Origin: Magnetococcales bacterium
Lineage (GTDB): Bacteria > Pseudomonadota > Magnetococcia > Magnetococcales > UBA8363
Assembly (NCBI GenBank): GCA_015228925.1
Contig: JADGCQ010000012.1
Span: 1-57,521 of the forward strand
Length of the DNA stretch: 57,521 nucleotides
Direction of reading: 5' to 3'
Position 1 is the stretch's first letter. Each line of letters begins with the position of its first letter. A program made the position numbers and the translations under genes. The notes beneath the pieces are model-generated. The model ran no database searches. It had not been told where the DNA came from and worked only from the letters and a program-made list of their open reading frames with translations. Positions 26,150 to 34,733 of this stretch are shown piece after piece.

Positions 26150-27679
26150 TCATCCGTGCGTCGTCAGCAGCATCCGATTGGTGGAAGAACGGCTTTCCCC
26201 CACCGAAGAGACCCGAATGGCCGCTTCTCCCCCCACCGGACATTTGTTTTCACAAATGCCACAACCAATACACAGATCAGGTTTGACAAAAGGTTGTTTG
26301 AGCGTCACCGATTGTCCATCCCGGTTGGTGATGGTGATGGGACGATACCAGATCGCCTTGGGTGATGTGGGACATACCTCCTCACACACGATACACGGGA
26401 CATCCATGGCCCACGGCAGACAACGCCCCCGGTCAAAAAAGGCGGTCCCCAAGCGGATGGGTTCCACAAACGGGGGACGACCAATCTTTTCATCCACCGA
26501 CAACCGGCGGATCGCCCCGGTGGGACACGCCAATCCACACAAGACACAATGATGTTCACAATACCCCATGCGGTTGATCAGCATGGGAGTCCATAACCCC
26601 TCAAATCCCCCTTCAAGCAACGCCGGTTGCAGCACATTGGTAGGACACACACGCATACAAGCCGCACACTTGATACAACGTTTGGCAAAATCCTCCTCGG
26701 TCAAAGAACCCGGCGGACGAATCAGCATCGGAAAGTCGATCGTCGTTGCCGAAACCGACTGCCGCATCAAGGGGAATACCACCACCGAACCCACAGCGGT
26801 TTCCAACAGACGACGGCGATGGAAATCCAACGGTTGATGCACACTGCTCCCCTTTTTCGGCAGGCCATAGTGCAATGCCCCCTCCGGGCAATGTTCCAGA
26901 CAATTCATACACAAATGACATTCCGACGGTCGCCATGCCCCGTTGGGATCACATCCCCCCTGACAAGATAATAGACATTTATTGCAGCCCGTACATTTTC
27001 CCACATCCCGCTGGATGCCAAACACCGACCAACGCGACAACACACCCAATAAAGCCCCCAAAGGACAAACAACCCGGCACCAAAAACGGGGGAGATAGCG
27101 ATTGGCAAGCAATACCGCCAGGAATACAACCGCAACCACCAGTCCGCCATAAAACACCGGCCCGTTGGGATAAATACCCAACCCCAGCACCACCCCATCC
27201 ACCGCCGGAAGCACCGAGACCACCATGGAGCGAAACACCAGGGCGATGGGATCCAATAGCCCCACCTGCAAACCGCCCCAGGCGGCAACCACCAAAAAGA
27301 CAACCAACACATGATATTTAAATCGGAATAATTTCCGATAGGCATTGCGTTCATATCTCTGTGCTGGCCGCAAACCACCGGCACCCAGGCCGACAATCTG
27401 GTTCATGATCCCCAGCGGACACATCCAGGAACAAAAAAAACGGCCAAAAAACAAAGTCAAAACCACAATGATCACAGAAAAGATCATCCCCTTGTAGAGG
27501 GTTTGACTCGTCAAAAGCCCACCGATAGCGACCAACGGATCCAACTCCAAAAACAACCGGACATTGAATCCCTGCATCCGGCGAAAATCGGCGATGATCA
27601 GCAGAAAGAAAAACAGGGTGAGAAAAAACAGGGCATAAAGCCGTCGTATGGACCGCAGCCCCGGAAGGGTAATCTTCAT
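26150..27679 (-). CDS. NapH/MauN-like membrane polyferredoxin
   Basis: A 509-residue protein. An N-terminal membrane domain (helices at about 12-32, 65-85, 115-135, 175-195) contains CSWMCPLG and CRVVCPLG, as in the NapH/RdxA family. Several 4Fe-4S motifs follow: CTGCNKCLLSC, CHLCMNCLEHCPEG, CIKCAACMRVCPTN, CVLCGLACPTG, CIVCEEVCPTSP and CIGCGICENKCPV. It is likely an electron conduit between the quinone pool or membrane and soluble partners. It is the last gene of a leftward cluster with DUF362, DUF6599-like and aldo/keto reductase proteins (7 bp after DUF362), suggesting it passes electrons to that set. Confidence 0.85.
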   Translation of the reverse strand: MKITLPGLRSIRRLYALFFLTLFFFLLIIADFRRMQGFNVRLFLELDPLVAIGGLLTSQTLYKGMIFSVIIVVLTLFFGRFFCSWMCPLGIMNQIVGLGAGGLRPAQRYERNAYRKLFRFKYHVLVVFLVVAAWGGLQVGLLDPIALVFRSMVVSVLPAVDGVVLGLGIYPNGPVFYGGLVVAVVFLAVLLANRYLPRFWCRVVCPLGALLGVLSRWSVFGIQRDVGKCTGCNKCLLSCQGGCDPNGAWRPSECHLCMNCLEHCPEGALHYGLPKKGSSVHQPLDFHRRRLLETAVGSVVVFPLMRQSVSATTIDFPMLIRPPGSLTEEDFAKRCIKCAACMRVCPTNVLQPALLEGGFEGLWTPMLINRMGYCEHHCVLCGLACPTGAIRRLSVDEKIGRPPFVEPIRLGTAFFDRGRCLPWAMDVPCIVCEEVCPTSPKAIWYRPITITNRDGQSVTLKQPFVKPDLCIGCGICENKCPVGGEAAIRVSSVGESRSSTNRMLLTTHG

Positions 27680-27686
27680 GGTTATC

Positions 27687-28697
27687 TTACGAAACCTGGG
27701 TTTCCGAAATGTTAAGGTTCTGCCAACGCACTTGCCCCAACCCCCGTTTTTCGGCCATGGCCAAAAACGGGATCTGCTCAGGACGCAACGCCAGATAGCT
27801 CAGACAATAACTATCCAACGCCACTTCATCCAGGGAGGCGATCACCGTATTTTCCCGCTGAACATCATCCAGGCTGCCACCCGTAGGGCCATTATGTTTC
27901 AACACACGCACCGCATCCATCACCGTCAAGGTAGGACGTACCGCTGCCGCCAGATCGACGATAGAGGTATGAATATCCTGATGCAACTGATTACGCCGTC
28001 CCCCCAACACCCCATACCAGTTTTTCATCGACAACGTGCAACCGCTCAAAGAATGATGTTTGACGATGGGGAGATTGATCACCTTGTCCACGGCATGAAA
28101 CAAGCGATTGACCGGCCAAACCCGTAAAACGGTTCCCCCCATGTCGGTAGCAAGAAAATCCTCTTTCCCCGGGATCATCACCTGGGCATTGGCCTGAAGG
28201 GCCGCCGCTTCAATCCCGGAGCGGGCAAAACACCGCCCTGGATCATTAAGTGACACATCGGTGACCCACACCGCAGCCGCCCCGGCCTCCTGGCATAGCC
28301 GAGCCATAGCCGCCACCAGTTCCGGTCCGGTATTGGCCGCCTGCTGCGGTTGCCGATCCCAACCGACATTGGGTTTGAGCAACACCCGATCACCCTTGTG
28401 GATAAATCTTGCCAAACCGCCCAGTTTTTGTACCGCCTCACGCACCATGGTCTCGACATTTTCCCCATGCACCACCGCCATGACCGGATACAACCCATTG
28501 GCCGAGACACGAAAATCCTTCAACGTAAGGACTTCCACCGCCCGATGCCGTACCGGTTCGTCGCCATGCAACCAGAGTCCCCCTCCCGCAATCACGGTGG
28601 AGACCCCCGCCAAGGTTCCCACCCGCACCATGAACTGCCGCCGCCCCATCTCTGGTTGGACCTTGATGGGTCTGGTTTTTTTTCTTTCCGCAGTCAT
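27687..28697 (-). CDS. DUF362 protein with Tat signal
   Basis: A 336-residue DUF362-family protein. The N-terminus carries a twin-arginine motif (RRQFMVRVG) and a hydrophobic stretch to about residue 40, implying export in folded form. The body has GDRVLLKPNVGWD near 100 and INLPIVKHHSLSGCTLSMKN near 225, which are family hallmarks. DUF362 proteins are often found with ferredoxin-like genes; their reaction is not established. The start overlaps the stop of the DUF6599-like gene (ATGA). No 4Fe-4S motif is seen within it, so redox partners are presumably its neighbours. Confidence 0.85.
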   Translation of the reverse strand: MTAERKKTRPIKVQPEMGRRQFMVRVGTLAGVSTVIAGGGLWLHGDEPVRHRAVEVLTLKDFRVSANGLYPVMAVVHGENVETMVREAVQKLGGLARFIHKGDRVLLKPNVGWDRQPQQAANTGPELVAAMARLCQEAGAAAVWVTDVSLNDPGRCFARSGIEAAALQANAQVMIPGKEDFLATDMGGTVLRVWPVNRLFHAVDKVINLPIVKHHSLSGCTLSMKNWYGVLGGRRNQLHQDIHTSIVDLAAAVRPTLTVMDAVRVLKHNGPTGGSLDDVQRENTVIASLDEVALDSYCLSYLALRPEQIPFLAMAEKRGLGQVRWQNLNISETQVS

Positions 28698-29638
28698 GGG
28701 TTAAAAAATTCCTTCAAAGGTTGCACAAGGGGTTGCATCTCCATCCCAAAAATTCCCAAAATTTGGGGACCGTGTTCCACCACAAACCAATCCCCCTCGT
28801 AGGGATCCTGAATGCGCAGATAAGGGATCCCCCCATCCTGGACCATCGTGGCGGGAATGTTCTCCTTGGCCAGAAAATCCAACAACGCCTGTTTGCGCTT
28901 GGCCAGTTCTTCGGGAGATCCCGTCAAAAGAAATGATTGAAAGACCGTCTCACCCCGTTTGAATGTCCGTTCAAGGACATTGCCGAAAAATGCAAGTCCA
29001 TGATAATTTTCCTTGATAAAACGGGTTTCTACCACCTCCCCCAACGCCGGAAAACCGAGTACCAACGGAGAACTGCCCATTTTTTTCAACAAACCCGCAG
29101 CAATCTCTCCCCCCCACCGCTCCAGGGGAAGACCCGTGACAAAAGCGGAGATTTTGATAAACAACGATCCCTGAATAAAGTTGATCCCCTCCCCAAAATC
29201 AAACCCCATGGTCCCCACGTTGATGGCTTTGACGTTGGCCGGGGTTTCGTTCATCAACATCCCAAAGGCAAACAGCGGCTCCCCCATATCAAAAACATCC
29301 ATGGTCACCTGCGGTTGGCTCCCTGGATCCAAAGAACCATATTCCGCCACCACCAGCCCTTTGAATCCGGCATTGATATAGGATTCAGCATGGCCATTGA
29401 CGTATTCAAACAAGTTATCCCGGGTGAAATGGCGCAACGGCCCCACACGAGACAGCGGAGGCAATTGCTCGGGAATCCAGGAGGTATCCATCGCTGCCCC
29501 TGATCCATCCCCTTTGGAAAAATCGAGCAGTCCAGGGTCATACCGCTGCCCGTCATACCCAATCACAAGGGCTAATAACCCAAGGATGAGGAGCAATACG
29601 ATCCGAATCCAGGGGTGGGGTTCATTCGATGCTGGCAT
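28694..29638 (-). CDS. DUF6599-like membrane-anchored protein
   Basis: A 314-residue protein with one N-terminal hydrophobic helix (IVLLLILGLLALVIG, about residues 12-28) and a long extracytoplasmic region. The phrase FEYVNGHAESYINAGFKGL fits the DUF6599 family as I recall it. No Cys motif or catalytic residue is visible. The ATG at 29638 is chosen over a much longer upstream frame because it begins immediately before the signal anchor and fits the 41-bp gap from the aldo/keto reductase gene. It lies inside a leftward cluster whose other products are exported redox proteins, so it is probably a periplasmic partner. Function unknown. Confidence 0.7.
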   Translation of the reverse strand: MPASNEPHPWIRIVLLLILGLLALVIGYDGQRYDPGLLDFSKGDGSGAAMDTSWIPEQLPPLSRVGPLRHFTRDNLFEYVNGHAESYINAGFKGLVVAEYGSLDPGSQPQVTMDVFDMGEPLFAFGMLMNETPANVKAINVGTMGFDFGEGINFIQGSLFIKISAFVTGLPLERWGGEIAAGLLKKMGSSPLVLGFPALGEVVETRFIKENYHGLAFFGNVLERTFKRGETVFQSFLLTGSPEELAKRKQALLDFLAKENIPATMVQDGGIPYLRIQDPYEGDWFVVEHGPQILGIFGMEMQPLVQPLKEFFNP

Positions 29639-29679
29639 AGTCTTCTTTGCCCGGAATGATCGATTGATTTCGGTCGATC

Positions 29680-30888
29680 TTACACCAAACCAGTCAACGT
29701 CAAATGGTGATGCGCCTGGCGCAGTTGCGCCACCACATCCAAACCGTGGGGGCAGAGACCGGCACAAGCCTGTGTGCGACAATCCAGGCATGGACGGGCC
29801 GACTGCGGCAGTCTGGCATAGGATTCCATCGCCCGTTTTTCATCCCGATAATCGCTAAAATACATGTTATAGCGCAGGATAGTGGCGATATCGACCTGAT
29901 GGTCACACGCGCCAGAGCAATCACCGCAGCCGGTACGGCAGTATTGATCCCCGTGGAGTGCCGCATAATGATCCAGGGCTTTTTGATCCCTGGCGGTGAA
30001 GGCTTGTCCAGAAGCGGGCAGGTAAAGATCCAAATCCTGGGCCGATTTGAAGGTAATCACTAATCCGGCAATTTCTTCATGGTTTAAAACCCATTTCAAG
30101 GCCGCCTGTTCAAACTGTCCCACATCCAGTTTGGCACCGCTCTCCTTGGCCCCCGCGAGGGTTTTCATGGCGATAACCCCCACCCCCTTTTGTTTGGCCA
30201 GGCGCAAAATATCGGGGATACGGGGAAATTTCATAAAGTTGAACGCAATCATGATCCAATCAAAATGGCCCGAATTGACCGCTTCCACCATGAGGGGTTC
30301 CATGTTGTGTGGACCGTGAGAGGATACCGCCAGATGCCGAACCTTACCCGCTTTTTTCAGTTTTTCTGCGGCGTTCAGCATGTTTTCATCCAACATGCGG
30401 CCTTTTTCCCCCTCCAGATCATTTCTTTCCCCGATGGCGTGTACAAAAACGGCATCCAAATAATCGGTCTTCATCCGTTTAAGGCTGTTATCCACGGAGG
30501 CCATATAATCATTGACGCTGGTTCCCAGAGCTAGGTGACTTTTACCCTCCTGATAGGGGACGGGATGGCAAAATTTGGAGGCAATTTTAATTTTTTCCCG
30601 ATCTTTGATCCGTTTCATGACTTCGCCAAAACGGTCCTCACTGGGGCCATAATCGGGAGCGGTATCAAAATAGTTGATTCCCCGATCGATGGCACGCAAT
30701 ATAAGGGAGCCGGAAGGGACGCTTCCCGCACCAAAAGAGATGTCACTCATGGCGATTCCGGTCTTACCCAAATCACGAAAACGGCGAACGTCCGCGCGCA
30801 CCGATGATTCCTCCCCCTGAGCCGGGGTTCCCACCACCATGGCGGTAGCCGCCAGAGCGGATGATTGCATGAATTCACGACGTTTCAT
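29680..30888 (-). CDS. Tat-exported aldo/keto reductase with 4Fe-4S tail
   Basis: A 402-residue protein. The N-terminus MKRREFMQSSALAATAMVV is a Tat signal; the ATG at 30888 is preferred because GGGAG lies upstream and the twin-arginine is then at the start. The TIM-barrel aldo/keto reductase domain holds the tetrad Asp and Tyr (FDTAPDYG), Lys (ASKFCHP) and His (VFVHAIG). The C-terminal region has CRTGCGDCSGACDH and CLDCRTQACAGLCP, suggesting one or two 4Fe-4S clusters. A periplasmic reductase using iron-sulfur electron transfer rather than free NADPH is plausible. It is the first gene of the leftward redox cluster. Confidence 0.87.
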   Translation of the reverse strand: MKRREFMQSSALAATAMVVGTPAQGEESSVRADVRRFRDLGKTGIAMSDISFGAGSVPSGSLILRAIDRGINYFDTAPDYGPSEDRFGEVMKRIKDREKIKIASKFCHPVPYQEGKSHLALGTSVNDYMASVDNSLKRMKTDYLDAVFVHAIGERNDLEGEKGRMLDENMLNAAEKLKKAGKVRHLAVSSHGPHNMEPLMVEAVNSGHFDWIMIAFNFMKFPRIPDILRLAKQKGVGVIAMKTLAGAKESGAKLDVGQFEQAALKWVLNHEEIAGLVITFKSAQDLDLYLPASGQAFTARDQKALDHYAALHGDQYCRTGCGDCSGACDHQVDIATILRYNMYFSDYRDEKRAMESYARLPQSARPCLDCRTQACAGLCPHGLDVVAQLRQAHHHLTLTGLV

Positions 30889-31169: not shown

Positions 31170-34100
31170 ATGGACGCAACCCCACTTGCCACCCTGTTTG
31201 CTCAACGCCTGGATACTCTACCCCACCGGAAAGGACGCCCCCACGGCATCCTGACCGATCTGCCAGGGGCAACCCTCAGTCTGCTTGCCAAAGAGTGGGC
31301 ACAAGGGTTGGCCGACCCCTTGGTCATCGTCACCGGGACGACCGCCCGCGCCGAAGCCATCTACCGAGAACTTCTGCTATTCCAGGGGGATCGCCATAAG
31401 CCTACCACCATTCTCCCGTTTCCCTCCTGGGAGATTTTACCCTTTGAGCCGTTATCACCCTATGGGCCGATTGTCGGAGAACGGATTGCCACCCTGTACC
31501 GTCTGACCCAAATGTTGGGATTGGGTGCGGTGCGTGCCGAAAATGAACGGGGACAAAAACAGGCCATCATCATCACCACCCCCATGGCGTTGATGCAAAG
31601 ACTCATCCCCCGGCACCTCCTGGCGGCGCATGGCTTTGCCATTCGGGAATCGGATCAGATGGATCTGCCCGCCTTCAAACAATTTTTGATCAGCTCCGGC
31701 TATCGCTCCGCCACCCAGATCGAAGAACCGGGTGAATTCGCCGCGCGTGGCGGCATCATCGACCTGTTCCCACCCGGATATGAAGAACCGGTGCGGATCG
31801 AACTATTCGGCGACCAGGTAGAGACCATCCGCCATTTTGACATCCACACCCAAAGGTCTACCCAAAGGGCCTCCCGGTTGGAAACCCTCCCCATGAGCGA
31901 AGTCCTCCTGACCGAGGAGACCATCCGCTGTTTTCGGACCCAATACCGCGAAACCTTCGGAGGCCAAGCGGCCCAGGATGAACTCTATAAAGTCATTTCC
32001 TCCGGGGCAAAACTCCAAGGGATGGAACGATTTCTCCCCCTGTTCTACGAAACCACCGACCTGTTGACCGATTATCTCCCCGAAGGGAGTCACGTTATCC
32101 TCGATGGCGATGTCGAACCCGTGGCGGTTGCGTTTGCCCAAAAAGTGCAAGCCCAAAGAGAACTTCTGTTGCAGGAAGACCCTGCCGCCCAAAGACGGTT
32201 GCTCCCCGCTGACCGTTTCTATCTGACCGCCAGCCAGCTCATGGAGTCTTTGGACCGTTTTCATAGCGTTGGGATCGACAATCATCCCTCCGAAGGGGGA
32301 TGCTCCCTCGGTTTTGCAGCCATTCCCGAATTTCTCGATCCGGTGAGCGAAGAAGTTCCCGCAGGACATTCGGTTTTGGACAAAGTGGTCGCCTTCATCA
32401 AGGGGGAGAAAAAACGGCGTCAACGCATCATTGTTTCCGCCCGTTCCCTGGGGCAACGCGACCGGGTTGGGGAATTATTGGCCGATCATGGCCAAAAATC
32501 GGAAACCGCCCTGAGCTGGCATCAGGCATTGACGACCGCCACCCATGTGATCCAATTGGTCATCGGTGATTTGGCCAACGGTTTTTCCCATTCCGGTCTC
32601 GGCCTGACGGTGATCCATGAAGATGCAATCCTGGGAACCCGCGCCCGTCGCAAACATACCGACCCCAACTATCTGGACCGGATACTGGCCTCCTTTCGCA
32701 ATTTGAAAGAGGGGAGTTTTGTGGTCCACGCCGATCATGGCATCGGCTGTTTTGGCGGTTTACATACTTTGGCGGTGGGAGGGATCCAAAACGATTTTCT
32801 TCTGCTGACCTATGCCGGTTCGGATAAACTCTATGTCCCGGTGGAAAATCTGGATCGGGTCAGCAAGTATGCCGGTTCCGACGAGGTGATCCTGGATAAA
32901 CTGGGTGGGACCAAGTGGAAAAAGACCCGCCAGAAGGTCAAAAAGAAAATTTTGGAAATGGCTGCGGAACTGGTGGCCATTCAAGCCAAACGGGAAACCG
33001 CCCAGGGGATCCGTTTCTCCCCACCCCATGCCGCCGACCATGAATTTGGTGCCGCATTCCCCTACGAGGAGACCCCCGATCAGGCCCAGGCCATCGAGGC
33101 GGTCCTGGCAGACATGACCTCCCCCCATGCCATGGATCGATTGATTTGTGGCGACGTGGGGTTTGGAAAAACGGAAGTGGCGTTACGGGCCGCCTTTCGC
33201 TGCATCATGGATGGCAAACAGGTGGCGGTCCTGGCCCCCACCACCATTCTGGCGCAACAACATTATGAAACTTTTTCCCGCCGTTTTGCCCCCTACCCCG
33301 TCAACGTCGCGGTCATGTCGCGGTTTCGCAGCGCAAAACAATTGACCGAATTGGTCGAAAAAACCCGCGAAGGGAAAACCGATATCATCATCGGCACCCA
33401 TCGGCTGTTGCAGGAAGATGTCGGATTTAAAGATCTGGGGCTTTTGGTTGTGGACGAAGAACAGCGATTCGGTGTCGTCCACAAGGAACGGATCAAAAAA
33501 ATGCGTGCCAATGTCGATATCCTCACCCTGACCGCAACCCCGATCCCCCGTACCCTGCACATGGCCATGTCAGGCATCCGTGATATCTCCATCATCGCCA
33601 CCCCCCCGACCAACCGCTTGGCCATACGAACCTTTGTCATTGAATATTCTCCAAGCCGCATCCGCGAGGCAATTCTTCGGGAAATTTATCGTGGTGGGCA
33701 GGTTTTTTATGTGTTCAACAAGGTGCAGGAGATCGAACGGATGTCCCATCGACTCCTGGAACTGGTCCCGGAAGCCAAAATCGGCATCGCCCATGGACAA
33801 ATGCCCGTAGGTCGCCTTGAACGGATCATGGTTTCATTTTATCGCCAGGAGTTCAACGTCCTCCTGTGTACCACCATCATTGAAAACGGGGTCGATATCC
33901 CCAGTGCCAACACCATCATCATTCATCGGGCCGATCATTTTGGTTTGGCGCAACTGCATCAATTACGGGGTCGGGTCGGACGATCCCGCCATCGGGCCTA
34001 TGCCTATCTGCTCACCCCCCCTATCCAGGCTCAATCCGCCGATGCCCGAAAACGGTTGGAGGCGATCGAATCGTTGGAAGAGTTGGGATCGGGTTTTATG

Positions 34101-34733
34101 TTGGCCAGTCAGGATATGGAAATTCGCGGCGTTGGCAACGTATTGGGGGATGCCCAATCGGGTCATATCAAGGAGATAGGCTTTGAATTATACAACCAGA
34201 TGCTCAAGGAGGCGGTGGAAGCCTTTGGTGCGGGGACGGTTGTCGATGCCCAGGGGGAGATACCAGAAGAGGAAATCGTCCCGAGCATCAATCTGAGTTT
34301 GTCCACCAACATCCCCGACACCTACATCACCGACATGAATTTGCGTTTGACACTCTACAAACGGGTTGCCGAGCTGAAATCATCGGAGGAGACTGCGGAA
34401 ATGAAGGTGGAATTCACCGACCGTTTTGGTCCTCTGCCTGCTTCGGTGGAAAATTTATTGCGCGTGGTATCTCTCAAGAGAAAATGCATGACCGTGAAGG
34501 TCTTGAAACTGGAGGCGGGTCCCAAGGGGGCGGTTTTCACCTTTCACCCGCAACCCAACATTCACCCGCCGGTGTTGATCGACATGATTCGGAAAGGGGG
34601 AGGCTCAGTGTTATTCAATCAAGAAAAGAACCTGCTTTCATTTCGAGAGCGCAACTGGGAAGACCCCCATGTGCGTCTACAACATCTGGAGCGGATACTC
34701 GACACCCTTGCGGGGAAAAAAGCGGCACACTGA
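31170..34733 (+). CDS. mfd: Transcription-repair coupling factor
   Basis: A 1187-residue Mfd. The N-terminal UvrB-like region spans residues 1-350. The RNA polymerase-interaction (CarD-like) domain is near 510-570 (FVVHADHGIGCFGGLH). The RecG-like motor has Walker A GDVGFGKTEVALRA near 662 and DEEQ near 762, followed by helicase motifs including TATPIPRTLHMA and LRGRVGRSRHRAYAYL. The C-terminal TRCF domain that masks UvrA binding is complete. Mfd removes stalled polymerase and recruits UvrA. Length and motifs are normal. No strong ribosome binding site is visible; the ATG at 31170 begins the conserved region. Confidence 0.95.
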   Translation: MDATPLATLFAQRLDTLPHRKGRPHGILTDLPGATLSLLAKEWAQGLADPLVIVTGTTARAEAIYRELLLFQGDRHKPTTILPFPSWEILPFEPLSPYGPIVGERIATLYRLTQMLGLGAVRAENERGQKQAIIITTPMALMQRLIPRHLLAAHGFAIRESDQMDLPAFKQFLISSGYRSATQIEEPGEFAARGGIIDLFPPGYEEPVRIELFGDQVETIRHFDIHTQRSTQRASRLETLPMSEVLLTEETIRCFRTQYRETFGGQAAQDELYKVISSGAKLQGMERFLPLFYETTDLLTDYLPEGSHVILDGDVEPVAVAFAQKVQAQRELLLQEDPAAQRRLLPADRFYLTASQLMESLDRFHSVGIDNHPSEGGCSLGFAAIPEFLDPVSEEVPAGHSVLDKVVAFIKGEKKRRQRIIVSARSLGQRDRVGELLADHGQKSETALSWHQALTTATHVIQLVIGDLANGFSHSGLGLTVIHEDAILGTRARRKHTDPNYLDRILASFRNLKEGSFVVHADHGIGCFGGLHTLAVGGIQNDFLLLTYAGSDKLYVPVENLDRVSKYAGSDEVILDKLGGTKWKKTRQKVKKKILEMAAELVAIQAKRETAQGIRFSPPHAADHEFGAAFPYEETPDQAQAIEAVLADMTSPHAMDRLICGDVGFGKTEVALRAAFRCIMDGKQVAVLAPTTILAQQHYETFSRRFAPYPVNVAVMSRFRSAKQLTELVEKTREGKTDIIIGTHRLLQEDVGFKDLGLLVVDEEQRFGVVHKERIKKMRANVDILTLTATPIPRTLHMAMSGIRDISIIATPPTNRLAIRTFVIEYSPSRIREAILREIYRGGQVFYVFNKVQEIERMSHRLLELVPEAKIGIAHGQMPVGRLERIMVSFYRQEFNVLLCTTIIENGVDIPSANTIIIHRADHFGLAQLHQLRGRVGRSRHRAYAYLLTPPIQAQSADARKRLEAIESLEELGSGFMLASQDMEIRGVGNVLGDAQSGHIKEIGFELYNQMLKEAVEAFGAGTVVDAQGEIPEEEIVPSINLSLSTNIPDTYITDMNLRLTLYKRVAELKSSEETAEMKVEFTDRFGPLPASVENLLRVVSLKRKCMTVKVLKLEAGPKGAVFTFHPQPNIHPPVLIDMIRKGGGSVLFNQEKNLLSFRERNWEDPHVRLQHLERILDTLAGKKAAH

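Follow-up and report, generated by a model that had tools for sequence, protein, structure and literature searches.

The DNA studied here, referred to as the window, is a stretch of 57,521 nt (contig JADGCQ010000012.1) from assembly GCA_015228925.1 of a Magnetococcales bacterium. Between positions 26150 and 30888 its minus strand carries four open reading frames (ORFs) that encode an aldo/keto reductase (AKR), a DUF6599 protein, a DUF362 protein and an Fe-S membrane protein, hereafter the polyferredoxin. An earlier note on this DNA had described these leftward genes as an exported redox module, and all four were found as described. The AKR (29680..30888, 402 aa; PF00248, 4e-31, 108.6 bits against a cut-off of 24) has a twin-arginine N-terminus and a C-terminal domain with eight cysteines. 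It is followed by the DUF6599 protein (28694..29638, 314 aa; PF20244, 4e-20), with one N-terminal membrane span and two predicted extracytoplasmic domains; by the DUF362 protein (27687..28697, 336 aa; PF04015, 6e-50), with a putative twin-arginine signal and, in its structural model, a LarA-type domain for binding of the nickel-pincer nucleotide (NPN); and by the polyferredoxin (26150..27679, 509 aa), which matches NapH and NapG profiles and several Fer4 families of Pfam (best 5e-16). The gaps of 41 bp (AKR/DUF6599) and 7 bp (DUF362/polyferredoxin) agree with the spacing of 4-41 bp given previously, whereas the third junction is not a spacer but a 4-bp overlap (ATGA) of the DUF6599 and DUF362 genes. 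A promoter scan returned five sites against 4.4 expected, that is, no signal above expectation. DUF362 and DUF6599 had no match in PHROGs, so no phage origin is indicated.

The arrangement is conserved among close relatives. DUF6599 was present in 38 of 41 genomes, including that of the window, and the 37 loci other than our own were examined. In 28 of these the complete set of four is found side by side, which shows that the arrangement is not due to chance; four others are truncated by the end of a contig (L030, L037, L041 and L058), and in the remaining five one partner is missing nearby even when larger stretches are considered (the AKR in L023 and L026, the Fe-S protein in L024, L025 and L046). 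DUF362 was found in 37 of the 41 relatives, as a single copy in 36 of these 37, and the genome of the window also has a single DUF362 gene. In a sample of 398 pseudomonadotal genomes (48 Magnetococcales and 350 others), DUF6599 occurred in 43 of the 48 Magnetococcales and the module DUF362 in 42, against 0/350 of the others for either protein.

Neighbourhood analysis across phyla had been proposed as a check on the module, and it bore the module out, since the linkage is retained in several phyla. A profile search of genome contigs revealed at least 80 DUF362 loci, and the best 80 (19 Magnetococcales-like, 10 from Nitrospirota and 51 others) were analysed, a partner being counted when it was encoded on the same strand at a distance of no more than 6 kb. 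Within this set the Fe-S protein stands beside DUF362 in 72 loci (17/19 Magnetococcales-like, 9/10 Nitrospirota and 46/51 others) and DUF6599 in 59 (18/19, 7/10 and 34/51, respectively). The AKR accompanies DUF362 in 15/19 Magnetococcales-like and 7/10 nitrospirotal loci, and in 3/51 of the others. These counts define a core of DUF362, polyferredoxin and DUF6599, which recurs in Nitrospirota, Acidobacteriota, Gemmatimonadota, Zixibacteria and Myxococcota; the named near-identical loci are from Magnetococcales. In a tree of 84 proteins (80 assigned to these three groups and four divergent paralogues to none), one label change suffices for each group. Two metagenome-assembled genomes labelled as Gammaproteobacteria (L103 and L104), whose module DUF362 is 63-64% identical to that of the window, fall within Magnetococcales in this tree and are probably mislabelled.

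The AKR is thus an add-on of two lineages, Magnetococcales and Nitrospirota, and its candidacy as the core of the module, unsupported outside Magnetococcales-like and nitrospirotal loci, was rejected. Its place in the module, as given by the earlier note, holds for these two lineages, in which it is present and linked, but not for the module at large. In an alignment of 19 rows, twin arginines at residues 3-4 are invariant, as are D75, Y80, K105 and H150, which we take to be the AKR catalytic tetrad, and the eight C-terminal cysteines (C317, C321, C324, C328, C367, C370, C375 and C379; 29752..29940, minus strand), which by pattern form two [4Fe-4S]-type motifs. AKR-bearing forms of the module scoring at least 600 bits are found almost only in Magnetococcales and Nitrospirota (the Magnetococcales loci and L106, L108-L111, L115, which is truncated, and L116), and linked AKRs in other groups score 136-182 bits. 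The nitrospirotal loci with an AKR include that of Ca. Magnetominusculus (L116); in Ca. Magnetobacterium casense (L113) DUF362 and the Fe-S protein are present and no AKR lies nearby. Both lineages with the AKR-bearing module include magnetotactic bacteria, of which these two are examples.

DUF362 carries, according to its model, the fold of the NPN domain of LarA. PF04015 was its sole Pfam match at E<=0.1, and PF09861 (Lar_N) was not among the matches. The model, built from a 44-sequence alignment, had a pLDDT of 89.9 and a pTM of 0.82. A Foldseek search against the PDB gave 19 matches at E<=0.001 (E 1.6e-6 to 6.4e-5), all of them LarA-family proteins, PDB entry 4nar being counted as such through its sequence match. 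In VIA-align, 12 LarA-family entries aligned over 202-210 residues with Z 14.8-17.5 and rmsd 2.8-3.2, and the next-best row after this family reached only Z 5.3. The aligned ranges run from residue 74/77 to about 305-307 of the model and from 35 to 270 of 5HUQ (to 286 in longer LarA homologues). As the alignment stops near LarA residue 270, DUF362 would have only the N-terminal NPN domain of LarA; the second, C-terminal domain was not found in the 336 aa, signal included. This assignment of a LarA domain rests on the comparison of folds. It is in keeping with the placing of DUF362 and of LarA's DUF2088 in one Pfam clan, CL0471, and the authors of the LarA study, in the passages concerned, took DUF362 as an outgroup (PMC11770544). 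One gene of another genome (G104:C8:39343-39759; loci L175 and L183) matches PF09861 at 2.5e-6 and, over the same stretch, PF04015 at 9e-4, the latter under the cut-off; at the level of sequence, it is a bridge between the Lar_N and DUF362 families.

Conservation within DUF362 may reflect the same domain. All 44 rows of the alignment contain H215 and K225, and 40 contain H239, forming an H215-x9-K225-x13-H239 motif (27981..28055, minus strand); the four exceptions are acidobacterial paralogues in which, by eye, a histidine lies one place earlier. The LarA counterpart, with 5HUQ numbering recounted, is H174-x9-K184-x15-H200. According to the relevant passages of PMC11770544, K184 and R75 of LarA1 bind NPN, H200 ligates nickel, and H108 and H174 are the catalytic bases. 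The offsets of H215, K225 and H239 to their LarA counterparts are 41, 41 and 39, and those at the ends of the fold alignment are 42 and 35 (77-305 against 35-270). The three residues are likely equivalents of H174, K184 and H200. Near the place expected for H108 from these offsets, position 149 is S, T or N, and position 151 is N in 39 rows, R in four and H in one, so the second catalytic histidine of LarA appears to be replaced. DUF362 has four cysteines and no Fe-S motif. At its N-terminus lies a putative signal or anchor (residues 1-43; 28569..28697, minus strand) with R19 and R20, conserved in 44/44 rows, at the start of a modelled helix (19-43). In acidobacterial modules (L117:6434-7435 and similar), a second, very divergent DUF362 adjoins the first; it scores about 50 bits against the module profile and keeps both the twin arginines and the H-x9-K motif.

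The genes for NPN synthesis are found both beside the module and in the genomes that bear it. Clustering of the neighbours of the best 80 loci yielded LarC in 12, LarB in 10 and LarE in nine, with at least one lar gene in 13 (10 from Acidobacteria and three from Magnetococcales), and the linked representatives exceed the equivalog cut-offs (LarC 201 bits against 90, LarB 291 against 175, LarE 312 against 150). The order is AKR-DUF6599-DUF362-FeS-LarC-LarB-LarE in Magnetococcales (L095 and L105; L101 has LarB and LarE there) and LarE-LarC-LarB-FeS-DUF6599-DUF362-DUF362 in Acidobacteria. The linkage between lar genes and the module thus occurs in two phyla, with a different gene order in each. 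By their search coordinates, LarC and LarE are also neighbours of the module in six genomes, on a shared contig (G031, G036, G037 and G040, on the same strand; G024 and G032). In the genome of the window the three lar genes lie together on one contig (C196, locus L184), with LarC at 124-1338, LarB at 1251-2111 and LarE at 2083-2937, and a profile search found no Lar_N gene. Furthermore, LarC was present in 40/48 Magnetococcales genomes against 10/350 other Pseudomonadota, and LarE exceeded its cut-off in 36 of the 41 relatives. Lar_N (PF09861), the mark of canonical LarA, was present in 0/48 Magnetococcales against 6/350 others, all six with LarC. The earlier note had held that the genes belong to known families, which is correct, but it had overlooked the LarA NPN-domain fold of DUF362 and the link to lar genes.

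A similar search was performed in other phyla. The non-Magnetococcales loci come from 61 genomes, and the search covered 50 of these, many of them draft assemblies in which absences are soft. LarC was found in 42/50 of these module-bearing genomes and Lar_N in 30/50; 16 of the 20 genomes without Lar_N had LarC. In module-bearing Nitrospirota the figures were 9/10 for LarC and 0/10 for Lar_N. Among the 14 named genomes that served as controls, LarC occurs together with DUF362, and with no Lar_N, in Synechococcus elongatus and Haloferax volcanii; it occurs with neither Lar_N nor DUF362 in Corynebacterium glutamicum and Methanocaldococcus jannaschii. For Haloferax, PMC8305020 lists larBCE-like genes, in a passage stating that it 'may contain' an NPN enzyme. 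PF04015 was over cut-off in 0/60 chosen Pseudomonadota genomes (10 with LarC, 50 without).

The polyferredoxin, called NapH-like by the earlier note, indeed matches NapH (residues 10-271; 8e-17, 61.5 bits), but its C-terminal part matches NapG (residues 286-491; 2e-27, 96.0 bits) and it is, as judged by these profiles, a NapH-NapG fusion. Both scores are below the curated NCBIfam cut-offs (213 and 269, respectively). It contains 29 cysteines and six [4Fe-4S] motifs, predicted to lie on the cytoplasmic and periplasmic sides of the membrane. The NapH half has membrane spans, CxxxCP motifs at C83/C87 and C201/C205, and CxxCxxCxxxC motifs at 229 and 254; the cysteine clusters of the NapG half lie at 335, 374, 429 and 470. 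Between the halves is a Tat-type segment (Tat, twin-arginine translocation; residues 288-310; 26750..26818, minus strand) that starts with RRR (288-290). Across 18 rows, R289, R290 and E293 are invariant and R288 is present in 16. The hydropathy of this segment is under the threshold of 1.6, as for a weak last span. A homologous NapH-NapG fusion needs both Sec and Tat, the latter for its last span, by the reporter fusions described in PMC5449189, where NapGH is presented as a quinol dehydrogenase complex. No solved relative of the polyferredoxin was found at 1e-5.

Export of the module, with a polyferredoxin of the quinol dehydrogenase type, had been claimed previously, and the claim is supported by the twin arginines, by a TatC encoded in the same genome and by the Tat dependence of the polyferredoxin studied in PMC5449189. 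The two Tat signals of the note would be those of the AKR and DUF362, in which the twin arginines are invariant, but the Tat profile TIGR01409 scored under its cut-off on the AKR (E 0.04) and gave no listing for DUF362. The single-span anchored protein of that description is DUF6599, which has one hydrophobic span at residues 10-28 by hydropathy. Its model (pLDDT 90.0) places a domain similar to the extracellular sensor of PknH (4esq, Z 12.9, 130 residues) before one similar to TM1622 (1vr8, Z 10.2, 108 residues), and Foldseek returned nothing for it at E<=0.001. These sensor- and lipoprotein-like folds suggest ligand binding or docking and no enzyme, and we infer that DUF6599 would be a membrane-tethered docking or ligand-binding subunit. 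An open-access full-text search found no article that names it.

Taken together, we consider it probable, with some reserve, that the four genes encode an oxidoreductase that works outside the cytoplasm, is centred on an NPN-binding DUF362 protein and is wired to the quinone pool. The gene set, its linkage, the LarA-domain fold, the NPN genes without LarA and the export signals are computed observations; the loading of NPN, the docking of partners, the direction of electrons and the substrate are proposed in the following scheme. LarB, LarE and LarC would make NPN in the cytoplasm, where DUF362 would fold as a LarA-type domain and bind it, K225 serving as the NPN anchor, H239 as the nickel ligand and H215 as the single acid/base. 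Tat would export DUF362 already folded, a mode of export that the cytoplasmic synthesis of NPN would call for. In the periplasm, a hydride would be taken from, or given to, a small hydroxy compound. NPN in LarA is described as a transient acceptor of the substrate hydride (PMC11770544); DUF362 would not racemise, as it appears to lack the second catalytic histidine and has no C-terminal domain, and with this exported protein of one base and one domain the electrons of the hydride would instead pass into the quinone pool or be drawn from it. The NapH-NapG fusion would provide this coupling, with DUF6599 as a membrane-anchored scaffold or ligand-binding subunit, and in Magnetococcales and Nitrospirota the Tat-exported Fe-S AKR would be added as a second catalyst. 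That this would be the first NPN-dependent respiratory oxidoreductase, and that exported DUF362 proteins would form one of the main classes of NPN user still sought in LarA-less NPN makers, is a more tentative proposal, to which we give slightly less than even chances.

Several observations weigh against this reading. A LarA fold shared by the model shows, taken alone, no function for DUF362. Comparison of DUF362 and LarA profiles was not significant (E 0.27; 0.53 with another stretch paired; 0.07-0.11 in local mode), and PDB sequences searched with a DUF362 profile yielded nothing significant; a proof of homology from sequence was therefore abandoned. The pairing of the histidines and the lysine rests on spacing, on fold-aligned ranges and on the weak profile alignment (E 0.27), which does pair H215 and K225 with their LarA residues, and not on residue superposition. 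The LarC counts within Magnetococcales come from one order and are not independent events. Outside it, no LarC was found in 8/50 module-bearing genomes, many of them drafts, and the Lar_N of the 30/50 could explain their lar genes. The control Bacteroides ihuae has DUF362 without LarC, and in the pseudomonadotal sample four genomes (G069, G170, G294 and G362) have LarC with neither Lar_N nor DUF362. DUF362 as the explanation of every LarA-less NPN genome was rejected on account of these four, and another NPN user may exist besides it. Finally, no flavin domain was seen in the module, and the step from hydride to Fe-S cluster is the weak link of the proposed scheme; passing the two electrons of a hydride into one-electron Fe-S clusters usually requires a flavin.

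In a rival reading, DUF362 would have kept the fold of LarA without binding NPN, its linkage to larBCE being incidental and the real NPN user of the genome another protein. The non-significant profile comparisons, the B. ihuae genome and the LarC genomes devoid of DUF362 all speak for this. However, the H-x9-K motif is invariant, the linkage to lar genes exists in two separate arrangements, and no other clan member was found that could take this role, Lar_N being absent from all 48 Magnetococcales and DUF362 single-copy in 36 of 37 relatives; we regard this explanation as improbable. Another possibility is that DUF362 does bind NPN and acts as a periplasmic isomerase, the polyferredoxin only keeping a labile NPN-nickel centre active with no net flow of electrons. 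The NPN enzymes characterised in the passages of PMC11770544 are racemases or epimerases, holo LarA proteins are reported to be labile (PMC11796402), and LarA homologues with a single catalytic histidine are described (PMC12393405). Against this stand the apparent replacement of the second histidine at positions 149 and 151 and the absence of the C-terminal domain, and a six-motif polyferredoxin, present in 72 of the best 80 loci, is much apparatus for mere reactivation. We deem an isomerase unlikely, with a real chance of being correct nonetheless.

The reading implied by the earlier note, in which quinol feeds electrons through the polyferredoxin to a periplasmic reductase, would make the AKR the terminal enzyme and leave DUF362 and DUF6599 as accessory proteins. 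The AKR is the first gene of the operon, has a Tat motif, the four proposed catalytic residues and the eight cysteines, and is linked in the 28 complete loci of the order. Yet outside Magnetococcales-like and nitrospirotal loci it is near the module in only three of the 51 loci, while DUF362 and the polyferredoxin persist. The availability of NADPH also counts against it as a terminal enzyme; to our knowledge, NADPH is normally not free in the periplasm. A central role of the AKR hence seems quite improbable to us.

Read as an NPN-dependent oxidoreductase, the module is made of parts of known kinds, and it is their combination that is new, the more so if net redox chemistry is shown. With the LarA superfamily (NPN-dependent 2-hydroxy-acid racemases and epimerases; PF09861, 5HUQ), DUF362 shares the NPN-domain fold over about 205 residues, the H-x9-K spacing with a following histidine and the presence of larBCE in the genome; unlike it, DUF362 has no Lar_N match, no second catalytic histidine by position and no C-terminal domain, and it bears a Tat-type signal and a tie to a quinol-type polyferredoxin. 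Another member of its own family, Npun_F2552 (NF052623), is matched at 1e-25 with 90.4 bits against a cut-off of 500, so the module DUF362 is not its equivalog. DUF6599 is a plain member of PF20244. The polyferredoxin resembles the dual Sec-Tat protein MLMS-1 PFD (Tooke et al. 2017, PMC5449189) in being a NapH-NapG fusion with twin arginines before a weak last span and periplasmic [4Fe-4S] clusters; the passages on MLMS-1 PFD name no partner enzyme, whereas DUF362, DUF6599 and lar genes accompany the protein here. NapGH, the quinol dehydrogenase that serves periplasmic nitrate reductase, has the same domain content and the same expected topology, but here the scores are under the curated NapG and NapH cut-offs, a single polypeptide is made and there is no NapA among the module genes. 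In open-access full text we found no article on DUF362 with aldo keto reductase or on NPN with periplasm, and none that proposes DUF362 as an NPN recipient or ties it to a polyferredoxin; among the DUF362 literature found there, only the paper that uses it as an outgroup treats LarA. About 15% of surveyed genomes are reported to make NPN without LarA, and the passages of PMC11796402 on this leave the receiving protein unidentified. DUF362 is a concrete, widely spread and testable candidate for this role, and the module offers a candidate partner for dual Sec-Tat polyferredoxins and for DUF6599. If the proposal is true, nickel-pincer chemistry extends beyond cytoplasmic isomerases and reaches the respiratory chain.

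Some neighbours of the module complete the description. In the window, an ORF of 1187 aa (31170-34733), divergent from the module, resembles by eye the transcription-repair coupling factor Mfd. Near the module, several Zixibacteria-type and acidobacterial loci encode a radical SAM protein that has a twin arginine at its N-terminus, and also a large protein of membrane type without Pfam match (for instance L127:6661-7800 and L164:6336-8483; neighbour clusters C9 and C8, in six and eight loci, respectively). In five acidobacterial loci (cluster C10; L120, L129, L131, L158 and L165), the DUF362 pair is followed by a GH127-like protein of the beta-L-arabinofuranosidase family, with a Tat-type start in the one representative scanned, a slight hint that points to sugars.

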